This document shows positions 6,496-9,619 of a DNA stretch of 64,000 nt, piece after piece. Every line of letters begins with the position of its first letter. The stretch's first letter is position 1. The position numbers and the translations under genes are program-made. The notes beneath the pieces are model-generated. The model saw only the letters and a list, made by a program, of their open reading frames with translations. It made no database searches and was not told the origin of the DNA. The stretch comes from Xanthomonas rydalmerensis (GTDB lineage: Bacteria > Pseudomonadota > Gammaproteobacteria > Xanthomonadales > Xanthomonadaceae). The DNA is taken from contig NZ_CP126170.1 of assembly GCF_033170385.1 (NCBI RefSeq), forward strand, positions 644,001-708,000, written 5' to 3'.

Positions 6496-7815
6496 ATGAG
6501 CAAAATCGTCGCGCTCGAGACCTTCGACGTCCGTTTCCCCACCTCGCGCGAACTGGACGGTTCCGATGCGATGAATCCGGATCCGGATTATTCGGCCGCC
6601 TATCTGCGCCTGCGCACCGATGCCGACGATGGTCTCGCCGGCTACGGCCTGGCCTTCACCATCGGCCGCGGCAACGATGTGCAGAGCGCGGCGGTGGCGG
6701 CACTGGCGCACCACGTGGTCGGCCGCGACGTGGAGACGGTGATCGGCGATCTGGGCGGTTTCGCGCGCAGCCTCACCGACGACTCGCAACTGCGCTGGCT
6801 GGGCCCGGAAAAGGGTGTGATGCACATGGCCATCGGCGCCGTGGTCAACGCCGCCTGGGACATGGCCGCGCGCCGCGCCGGCAAGCCGCTGTGGCGCTTC
6901 ATCGCCGAGCTGTCGCCGGAGCAACTGGTGGACGCGATCGACTTCCGCTACCTCAGCGACGCGCTGACCCCGGACGAGGCGCTGGCCATGTTGCGCGACT
7001 CCGAACCGCTGCGCGCCGAGCGCATCCAGACCCTGCTCGACCAGGGCTATCCGGCCTACACCACCTCGCCCGGCTGGCTCGGCTATTCCGACGAGAAGCT
7101 GGTGCGCCTGGCCAAGGAAGCGGTGGCCGACGGCTTTCGCACGATCAAGCTCAAGGTCGGCGCCAACGTGGAGGACGACATCCGCCGTTGCCGCCTGGCG
7201 CGCGCAGCGATCGGCCCGGACATCGCCATGGCGGTGGACGCCAACCAGCGCTGGGACGTGGGCCCGGCGATCGCCTGGATGCGCCGGCTGGCCGAGTTCG
7301 GCATCGCCTGGATCGAGGAGCCGACCAGCCCCGACGATGTGCTCGGCCATGCCGCGATCCGCCGCGGCATCGCGCCGGTGCCGGTCTCCACCGGCGAGCA
7401 CACCCAGAACCGCGTGGTGTTCAAGCAGTTGCTGCAGGCCGGCGCGGTGGACCTGATCCAGATCGATGCCGCGCGCGTGGGCGGCGTCAACGAGAACCTG
7501 GCGATCCTGCTGCTGGCGGCCAAGTTCGGCGTGCGCGTGTTCCCGCATGCCGGCGGCGTGGGCCTGTGCGAACTGGTGCAGCACCTGGCGATGGCCGATT
7601 TCGTCGCCATCACCGGCAAGATGGAAGACCGCGCGATCGAGTTCGTCGACCACCTGCACCAGCACTTCGTCGACCCCGTGCGGATCGTGCACGGCCGCTA
7701 CCTGGCGCCGACGGCGCCGGGCTTCTCGGCCGAGATGCATGCCACTTCGGTCAGCGAGTTCCTGTATCCGGATGGCCCGTTCTGGAGTGCGGATCTGGCG
7801 GCGCAGGGCGCCTGA
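6496..7815 (+). CDS. L-fuconate dehydratase, enolase superfamily
   Basis: A 439-residue enolase-superfamily dehydratase that removes water from L-fuconate to give 2-keto-3-deoxy-L-fuconate. The active site is complete: Lys218 and Lys220 (KLKVG), metal ligands Asp248 (VDANQRW), Glu274 ([10 protein letters not shown]) and Glu301 (STGEHTQNR), and the general acid/base His in FPHAGGVG. These agree in spacing with the characterised Xanthomonas campestris enzyme. The start ATG 6496 begins [15 protein letters not shown]. An IS110 element lies 77 bp after its stop, separating it from the mutarotase and permease genes. Confidence 0.93.
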
Positions 7816-7870
7816 GTTTTGCGGTGTAGGTGCGTTTCCGCTGACGGAAGCGCACCGGCTGCGTTGAAGC

Positions 7871-7892
7871 GGTCGCGGCTGAAGCCGCTCCT
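7871..7892 (+). repeat. REP-like arm that is the target of IS110 copy 1
   Basis: The arm reads GGCTGAAGCCGCTCCT at its end and stops exactly where the insertion sequence begins. An intact copy would continue AC, and AC is found at 9125-9126 just beyond the element. The element therefore split the repeat after CCT. Confidence 0.85.
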
Positions 7893-8135
7893 TGTATCTG
7901 GACCTGGCGCCCCTAAACAGGCGTCATGTCTTCCGACTGATCATCGGAGGAGGTGTGGGAAGTCCAGTCGCTCCTGAAGCTTCGAGCTTGCATCGTAGAT
8001 CGGCTCCCCTCTCCACATGCTGGCCCTTGGGTGTCCGAACGGTATCCAGAGTCCGCCCCCGGCGTGAACTCGCATCGACAAGGCAGGACCGGGCACAGCG
8101 CCGATCATGACCCTGACACGATGGAGGAATCGCGT
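7893..8135 (+). ncRNA. Candidate bridge RNA region of IS110 copy 1
   Basis: In the IS110 group a noncoding RNA from the 5' end pairs with target and donor DNA. Here GTCGCTCCT (7967-7975) could pair along the left target GCCGCTCCT with one G-U. GTAG at 7995-7998 complements the right target CTAC. ACGGTATC (8039-8046) matches the element's right end, and ACAAG (8078-8082) complements its left junction CTTGT. The order (left target, right target, left donor, right donor) fits a two-loop bridge RNA. RNA ends and fold are not determined; this is inference. Confidence 0.55.
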
Positions 8136-9107
8136 ATGTCTCCCGTCATCGGCATCGACGTCGCCAAGCGCAGTTTCGATGTGGCCAGCGAGCTGACCAA
8201 TGGCAAGCACCGTACCAAGGCCAAGTTGTCCAACGATGCCAAGGGCTTCCAGGCCCTGCAGGCATGGCTGCAGACGCATGCGCAGCCCGAGAGCTGGATC
8301 GCCATGGAGGCCACTGGCACCTACCACCAGGCACTGGCCGAGTTCCTCCACGCACGAGGCTATCGGGTGTGCGTGCTCAACCCGGCGCAGACGGCCGCGT
8401 ATGCACGCAGCCAGCTCAGCCGGGTCAAGACCGATCGCAGCGATGCCAAGCTGATCGCTAGCTATGCCCTGCGTCACCGCGAGCAGTTACGCCGTTGGCA
8501 CCCTGATCCGCCGGCGCTCAAGCAGCTCAAGGCACTGGTGCGCCGGCGCCAGGACTTGCAACAGATGCTGCAGATGGAGCGCAACCGGCTGGACGTCGCT
8601 CCGGCCCAGGTGAAGGACTCGATCCAGGTCCATCTGGCCGATCTGCAACATCACATCGCCCAGATCGAGCAGGCCATCGATGACCATATCGACCAGGATC
8701 CGACCTTGCGGGGGCAGCGCGAGTTACTGGTGAGCATCCAGGGCATCGCCGACACCAGTGCGGCCTTGATGCTGGCTGAGCTTGGCGATGTGAGGCGCTT
8801 TGCCGATGCCTCGGCGCTGACCGCCTTCGCCGGCCTGAATCCGTGCCTGCAGGAGTCGGGCGACCGCAAAGGCCATGTCTGCATCTCGCGCACCGGCTCG
8901 CCCCGCCTGCGCGCGGGCCTGTTCATGCCGGCCCTGGTGGCCATGACCCACAACCCGGTCATCCGGGCGCTGAAACAGCGGCTAAGCGAACGCGGCAAAG
9001 CCGGCAAGCAGATCGTGTGCGCCGCCATGCGCAAGCTCCTGCACCTCGCCTATGGCGTCCTCAAATCGGGCACCGCGTTCGACCCGAAAAGGAGCCTTGC
9101 CTGCTAG
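8136..9107 (+). CDS. IS110-family transposase (recombinase), copy 1
   Basis: A 323-residue IS110 recombinase. The N-terminal RuvC-like DEDD domain has Asp8 (GIDVAK), Glu58 (AMEATGTYH), Asp100 and Asp103 (KTDRSDAK). A coiled-coil-like middle (about 130-200) leads to the C-terminal Transposase_20 domain (SIQGIADTSAALMLAELGD, then TAFAGLNP and SGDRKG), which supplies the catalytic serine in this family. ATG 8136 is chosen because GGAGG lies 8 bases upstream; the frame is open further 5' through the noncoding end. It appears intact and differs from copy 2 at three residues. Confidence 0.95.
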   Translation: MSPVIGIDVAKRSFDVASELTNGKHRTKAKLSNDAKGFQALQAWLQTHAQPESWIAMEATGTYHQALAEFLHARGYRVCVLNPAQTAAYARSQLSRVKTDRSDAKLIASYALRHREQLRRWHPDPPALKQLKALVRRRQDLQQMLQMERNRLDVAPAQVKDSIQVHLADLQHHIAQIEQAIDDHIDQDPTLRGQRELLVSIQGIADTSAALMLAELGDVRRFADASALTAFAGLNPCLQESGDRKGHVCISRTGSPRLRAGLFMPALVAMTHNPVIRALKQRLSERGKAGKQIVCAAMRKLLHLAYGVLKSGTAFDPKRSLAC

Positions 9108-9156
9108 GGGGTAAGACGGTATCTACGTGTGCGATCCGCGCTGCGCCGGCGCTCTC

Positions 9157-9179
9157 GTAGGAGCGGCTTCAGCCGCGAC
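9157..9179. repeat. Single REP-like arm beside IS110 copy 1
   Basis: GTAGGAGCGGCTTCAGCCGC plus three bases, about 30 bp right of the insertion sequence. Its inverted partner may be the arm at 7871-7892, with the IS now between the two. Confidence 0.7.
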
Positions 9180-9244
9180 GAGCGAAGCCGACCAACCCAC
9201 CGGCCGCAGCAGCCGTCGGGACGGACGTCCCTCTCGCAAACGCC

Positions 9245-9619
9245 TCAGCCCGTGCTCTTGCGCTCCTGTTCCGCCAACGCCGCCTGCAACGAAAAGATCT
9301 GCAGCGCCTCGCGCCATTTCTCGCCGGGCGCCGACCCGGGCAAGGGTTTCTGGAAGCGCCACATCAGCGCTTCCCAGGCCCGCACGCGCGGGTTGGCCGC
9401 GTCGGCGGCGGCCTTGGCTGCGGGCGAATAGTCCTCGTCCACTTCCATCAGCATCACCAGGCGGTCGCCGCAGCGGTGGATGTCCAGCTCGCGGATACCG
9501 GCGGCACGCAGCGAGGCGACGATCTCCGGCCAGACGGTGTCGGGACGGTGCCAGCGTTCGTATTCGGCGATCAGCGCCGGGTCGTCGTGCAGGTCCAGCA
9601 GGTAGCAGTGGCGCGGCAT
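9245..9619 (-). CDS. L-fucose mutarotase (COG3254, RhaM-like fold)
   Basis: A 124-residue member of the L-rhamnose mutarotase-like family, which interconverts sugar anomers. Conserved features are YLLDLHDDPALIAEYERWH at the N terminus, IRELDIHRCGDRLVMLMEVD in the middle and RAWEALMWRFQKPLP near the end. It starts 3 bp after the fucP stop on the same strand, so the two are surely cotranscribed. With fucP and the fucose enzymes alongside, L-fucose is the likely substrate, delivering the anomer used by the dehydrogenase. The IS110 element separates it from the enzyme operon, with which it converges. Confidence 0.85.
   Translation of the reverse strand: MPRHCYLLDLHDDPALIAEYERWHRPDTVWPEIVASLRAAGIRELDIHRCGDRLVMLMEVDEDYSPAAKAAADAANPRVRAWEALMWRFQKPLPGSAPGEKWREALQIFSLQAALAEQERKSTG

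Follow-up and report, generated by a model that had tools for sequence, protein, structure and literature searches.

The noncoding left end of an IS110-group insertion element found in the window (the whole 64-kb stretch of DNA analysed here) almost certainly encodes the guides of a bridge RNA, through which the element would work in the manner of IS621. As read from the sequence, this leader holds four guide segments within a conserved two-loop fold, copies of the element choose one target and insert into it precisely, and the guides change together with their targets between relatives.

The element and its insertion site

The element occupies positions 7893–9124 of the forward strand (1,232 bp with one core CT counted), limits that are drawn from its junctions, from 14 full copies with the same ends and from the uninterrupted site in three relatives. 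A noncoding left end of 243 nt (7893–8135) is followed by the gene of a 323-residue recombinase (8136–9107, forward strand) and by a right end of 17 nt. The left junction reads GCCGCTC-CT followed by TGTATC, with the core CT at 7891–7892, and the right junction reads ACGGTAT-CT followed by AC, with the core CT at 9123–9124. On the same strand, the left part of the interrupted REP, consisting of GTCGCGGCTGAAGCCGCTC and the core CT, lies at 7872–7892, and the right core CT together with the right target AC (9125–9126, the last bases of the REP) lies at 9123–9126.

In the host genome (G000; 5.04 Mb, one contig) the element is present in 14 full copies that are 98.6–100% identical. All 14 lie in the same REP palindrome, in one orientation, splitting it at the core CT; their left flanks end in CCGCTCCT (12 copies), CTGCTCCT (one copy) or TCGCTCCT (one copy), and the right flank starts with AC in every case. 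A second full copy within the window (L009, 29964–31195, minus strand; BLAST match 31208–29962 at 99.2% over 1247 bases) likewise sits inside a REP. Two fragments also occur in this genome, L015 (G000:C1:281622-281707, 86 bases) and L016 (4748515-4748547, 33 bases), and the sole close plasmid match is found in X. sacchari (95.4% DNA identity). At the site orthologous to that of the window copy, the REP is intact in the three relatives inspected (G009, G007 and G006, with full-length matches at 83–86% identity), that of G007 differing by one base within the target, so that insertion was precise at CT. The naturally multi-copy target system suggested by the original prediction is thus real, and rests on 14 full copies rather than the two then noted, but it is not new, since REP-dwelling elements had been reported previously (PMC1525189).

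Guide segments in the leader

Four segments had been proposed to pair with target and donor, and all of them are found in the leader, on the forward strand. The left target guide GTCGCTCCT (7967–7975, core CT included), delimited by the tests of own versus foreign targets described below, departs from the usual target GCCGCTCCT at a single base; as its pairing partner would be the bottom strand, the difference amounts to a G-U wobble. The right target guide CGTAG (7994–7998) contains the GTAG segment (7995–7998), which is, according to PMC3733652, the conserved end tag of a REP superfamily to which X. campestris repeats belong. It is followed by the putative handshake bases AT (7994–8000 in all), which match the donor AT preceding the core. 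The left donor guide ACGGTATC (8039–8046) is identical to the right end of the element, and the right donor guide ACAAG (8078–8082), the complement of the left junction CTTGT, is followed by a G (8078–8083 in all) that fits the C preceding the target core. The resulting motifs, TAGAT (right guide and two bases fitting the donor) and CAAGG (right donor guide and one base fitting the target), are both invariant in 18/18 aligned leaders and agree, as expected, with the handshake bases whose role is described for the IS621 bridge RNA in PMC11208158. In the order of its guides, the strands that they would read and their coverage of the CT core, the predicted RNA agrees with the bridge RNA described for IS621 (PMC11208160), in keeping with the two-loop order originally proposed, and the second window copy carries the same predicted RNA, as had also been claimed.

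Segments as short as these might be chance matches, a possibility weighed against 20,000 dinucleotide shuffles of the leader. GTAG and ACAAG recur in 6,093 and 2,343 shuffles, respectively, and either alone is therefore weak evidence; the left target guide recurs, exactly or with a single mismatch, in 1,151, the donor guide ACGGTATC in 37, both of these jointly in three, and the four segments in order in none, so that the ordered set is not a product of chance. Since the permutation tests given below are also contrary to it, a chance origin is already refuted and its probability is negligible.

Predicted fold of the bridge RNA

A covariance model (R1) built from 18 leaders, IS621 not among them, matches positions 7905–8107 of the forward strand, which we take as the extent of the predicted bridge RNA; its score of 194.5 bits comes from a model built partly from this very sequence. 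A 5' stem-loop at 7930–7950 (helix 1, 93.6% of cells paired) precedes a predicted target-binding loop at 7957–8008, whose closing stem (7957–7964 with 8002–8008) is the weakest of the structure at 64.8% of cells paired and whose apical hairpin (7977–7989) reaches 87.8%. The predicted donor-binding loop at 8023–8094 comprises stems 8023–8026/8091–8094 and 8033–8036/8086–8089 and an apical hairpin at 8049–8071, with 100, 95.8 and 95.0% of cells paired for helices 4, 5 and 6, respectively. RNAalifold, applied to the 18 leaders, returned 31 pairs, at 17 of which one or more sequences show a compensatory change. For the 36-pair structure, both sides have changed at 22/36 pairs (12.4 in shuffles), 88.5% of cells are paired (78.7 in shuffles) and the covariation score is 0.373 (0.191 in shuffles), with 0/500 shuffles as high on any of these three measures and only 5–11 pairs changed on both sides in slid control structures, although these statistics are biased in the structure's favour, the sequences being related and the structure derived from them. 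Pair types were about as numerous as in shuffles (42 versus 39.5, reached by 81/500). Single-sequence folding was excluded from the evidence, the leader folding no better than its shuffles (z -0.52, with 54/200 folding equally well). Folding and covariance analysis of the 243-nt region, the check proposed with the original prediction, thus finds a conserved two-loop fold.

At E up to 1, model R1 gave 22 matches in 21/23 sources, with no match in L038 and L039 and a match to the donor half only in L154 and L182–L184. Within the window it matched both copies of the element and nothing else, and at the IS621 locus it matched positions 493–693, over the leader, with 30.1 bits (E 1.5e-6, E-values being rough). 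A scan of positions 7700–9300 against Rfam found no bridge RNA match, returning only a chance IRES (E 0.81).

The leader might alternatively be translated as an N-terminal extension of the recombinase starting from a GTG at 7953, to which point the frame is indeed open (384 aa). However, distinct leader lengths (241 to 248) differ by non-multiples of three, two copies in the same genome carry a one-base deletion in this region, in the profile comparison the IS621 match starts around the ATG, and the paired positions co-vary, all of which makes a coding leader extremely improbable.

Guides and targets beyond the genus

A bridge RNA reading of the leader implies that guides differ where targets differ. 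A scan of reference genomes retained 80 loci, 70 of which entered the comparison, the others being eight further Pseudomonas BN417 contigs and two partial loci, L161 and L178; loci L182–L184, with a left end only and an unrecognised right end, were excluded from target tests. In relatives that occupy other targets, GTCGCTCCT gives way to a segment fitting their own target, the outcome on which the original prediction had been staked. Specifically, the target preceding the core and its guide are TTTCCACC and TTTCCACCCT in Pseudomonas BN417, TGTCCACC and TGTCCACCCT in P. oryzihabitans, CCAGCTC and CCAGCTCCT in P. batumici, GCGCACC and GCGCACCCT in Stutzerimonas kirkiae, AAGCCGAC and AAGCCGACCT in Salinisphaera, and AGCCGCTC and AGCCGCTCCT in Coralloluteibacterium. 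In 19/19 lineages the segment that best fits the lineage's own target falls 69–78 nt upstream of the donor guide. For 11 unique targets, own matches average 9.18/10 and foreign ones 6.98, and 0/100,000 permutations reach the observed sum of 101, their maximum being as high as 99 because many pairs stay in place in some shuffles. A rule applied to all loci (75 including five genus representatives, 50 usable and 25 set aside because an end was absent or short) gave 24 unique combinations, in which own matches exceed foreign ones for the left guide (7.71 versus 6.65) and for the right guide (6.46/7 versus 5.63), with 0/20,000 permutations in each case. For the right targets CTGACCC, CTAACCC, CTGACTC and CTGACAC, found in sister lineages, the 7-nt right guides are exactly complementary and lie mostly 45–47 nt upstream of the donor guide; left-guide matches in these lineages (L139–L167, other bacteria) are weak, at 6–8/10. 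Two exceptions were noted, the right guide of P. batumici, which reads ATAG opposite CTAC, and the guide of L133, which has CG at the core. With these exceptions, guides co-vary with targets between the relatives compared.

A crude guide-picking rule, which often took the wrong CAAG or CGAG, was not relied upon. At L141 and L152 the right end directly abuts CTCGTAT, a sequence resembling that lineage's left end; these loci may represent copies in tandem or the junction of a circle.

These data also bear on whether recognition of the REP hairpin lies with the recombinase protein, leaving the leader as an untranslated region with regulatory folds only. Such recognition would suit the palindromic target; a 2006 paper put forward palindromic REPs as possible recognition sites of transposases (PMC1525189), and a regulatory role has been reported for the ISPpu9 leader (PMC8450116). 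Protein recognition is nonetheless very unlikely, since a segment at a constant position in the leader varies in step with the target and right guides complementary to targets such as CTGACCC occur in sister elements, and because one copy (L063, below) lies outside any REP, in the guide DNA of another copy. Insertion directed by the guides, as originally proposed to explain the REP location, is supported by full copies that all lie in REPs and by guides that fit their own targets.

Copies within the genus and possible tuning to host REPs

Forty further copies were taken from six genomes of the genus, with proteins 96–98% or 79–81% identical, broken or partial copies (G017, G008, G019, G005 and G013) being left unextracted. 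GTCGCTCCT is identical in 27/27 distinct genus leaders and a REP-type left flank is present in 53/54 copies; with no variation of guide or target inside the genus, the co-variation rests on other genera. The one exception, L063 (G009:C1:3587157-3588875), interrupts the left target guide of another copy, having entered that copy's leader at GTCGCTC-CT; the outer copy has its left end in a REP and its remainder missing. The simplest reading is that an element inserted into guide DNA and that tandem copies later recombined. Among the loci examined, only L063 has GTCGCTCC abutting TTGTATC outside a REP.

L014 and L068 (= L021) lie in T-type REPs. A preference of the guide's U for such REPs was not evident, 2/43 T-type and 50/2,117 C-type sites being filled (Fisher p 0.28), nor was a preference of CGTAG for CTACG over CTACA (24 observed, 19.1 expected, p 0.07). 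As for the right guide's fifth base, CTACG accounts for 127/259 of CTACG and CTACA sites together in G000, 210/321 in G009 and 120/202 in G010, all hosts of the CGTAG guide, but for only 5/17 in G011, which has that guide too, and the share of CTACA in hosts of the TGTAG guide is 370/381 in G008, 336/337 in G017 and 542/550 in G018. Except in G011 this base tracks the commonest fifth base of the host REP tail, a pattern amounting to one or two evolutionary events at most.

Four guide patterns were also counted across ten genomes, and counts in the own host stood out in 5/7 guide-host pairs. GCCGCTCCTAC occurs 321 times in G000, 130 in G209 and 84 in G216 and 1–10 times in six other genomes, CCAGCTCCTAC 103 times in G215 and 0–2 times in the other nine, and GCGCACCCTAY 34 times in G214. 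The reversed-pattern control for GCCGCTCCTAC is itself high (54 in G000, 80 in G209, 87 in G213 and 20 in G216), so genomes were compared with one another. Against tracking, the P. oryzihabitans genome holding L116 (G213) has five exact sites of its own guide's pattern still free and 95 sites of the Xanthomonas type, perhaps because the element arrived recently or has nearly exhausted its target; G217 has 12 versus 7 for the reversed pattern; and G210 has 230 GCGCACCCTAY, yet its single analysed element copy fits another target. That guides track abundant host REPs is thus only partly supported. A broader scheme is possible but still doubtful, namely that REP-dwelling IS110 elements form a natural guide-retargeting series, in which the right guide, core and handshake would be locked on the GTAG tag common to many REP families and the left guide retuned to the REP stem of the host. 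The U of the Xanthomonas guide would then read both the C and T versions, and guide DNA, being half a target, would permit self-insertion as at L063, which may limit spread.

Recombinase and proposed mechanism

The recombinase combines the Pfam domains DEDD_Tnp_IS110 and Transposase_20. A sequence profile of this protein and five relatives matches the solved recombinases of IS621 (E 3.5e-93) and ISCro4. Residues D8, E58, D100, D103 and S241 are invariant in the six aligned proteins and sit, as matched by eye, at the positions of the IS621 catalytic residues D11, E60, D102, D105 and S241 (PMC11208158), consistent with a DEDD RuvC-like and Tnp-domain recombinase with a predicted catalytic serine.

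By analogy with IS621, from which transcription, circle formation, RNA binding and catalysis are here extrapolated, the element would exit as a circle with its ends joined as GGTATC-TTGTATC (junction GGTATCTTGTATC), and the joined ends would place a weak promoter ahead of the leader. Two loops would form in the RNA, one for the target and one for the donor. The first would read the REP tail GCCGCTC-CT-AC, its left guide pairing with the bottom strand and its right guide GTAG with the top strand, and the donor loop would read the joined element ends likewise. The recombinase would then exchange strands at the common CT core, landing the element in the REP with nothing else altered. The putative circle junction would join TTGCCT-17-TATCTT. 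TTGC stands 17 nt before TATCT in 15/16 elements, a candidate circle-junction promoter that has only 8/12 consensus matches in the window copy; a sigma-70 scan of the integrated element found no promoter.

Relation to known systems

The current view of how IS110 elements work is left unchanged by this finding. Its value lies in a natural set of bridge RNAs with differing left guides and near-identical right and donor guides, several of them with many insertions, which opens mismatch tolerance, wobble pairing and guide evolution to study from existing genomes. In the host of the window copy, 272 exact target sites (GAAGCCGCTCCTAC) are still unfilled, making target choice within a genome countable.

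Insertion into REPs was reported earlier for ISPpu9, ISPpu10, ISPa11 and IS621 (PMC1525189). The closest parallel is IS621 of Escherichia coli (PMC11208160, PMC11208158), which shares the recombinase family and catalytic residues, the CT core, a REP target ending in CCTAC, a long left end, four guides in the same order and on the same strands, handshake-like bases that are invariant, and a leader matched by model R1. It differs in protein sequence (~42–43% identity, for E. coli plasmid copies) and in its REP stem, and hence in its left guide; moreover, its RNA and activity have been demonstrated, those of the present element being predicted. ISPpu10 of Pseudomonas putida, likened here by description only, has 7/7 copies in REPs (PMC1525189) and a predicted bridge RNA listed by Durrant et al. 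(PMC11208160). ISPpu9, an IS110-family element of the same species, also has 7/7 copies in REPs (PMC1525189) and a long leader of 244 nt, and its translation is reported to be under the control of two RNAs, one antisense and the other a sense RNA located downstream (PMC8450116).

The IS1111 group with its seekRNA, exemplified by ISPa11, likewise has RNA-guided DEDD transposases, and ISPa11 resides in REPs, but the IS1111 RNA lies downstream of the gene and subterminal inverted repeats are usually 11–13 bp (PMC11187229). Here, by contrast, the left end is far longer than the right (243 versus 17 nt), as in IS110 elements with bridge RNAs, and the RNA match falls in the left end, with no long right end to house a seekRNA-type guide RNA. 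Insertion at a short core (CT) shared with a specific target (the REP), and two internal loops with target and then donor guides in a conserved fold, for all the weaker closing stem of the target loop, place the element in the same group. The word Xanthomonas is absent from the main texts of PMC1525189, PMC11187229 and PMC11208160, and the element may so far be undescribed. Its kind is known: bridge RNAs date from 2024 (PMC11208160), and the element is a clear new example of that published mechanism rather than a new mechanism.
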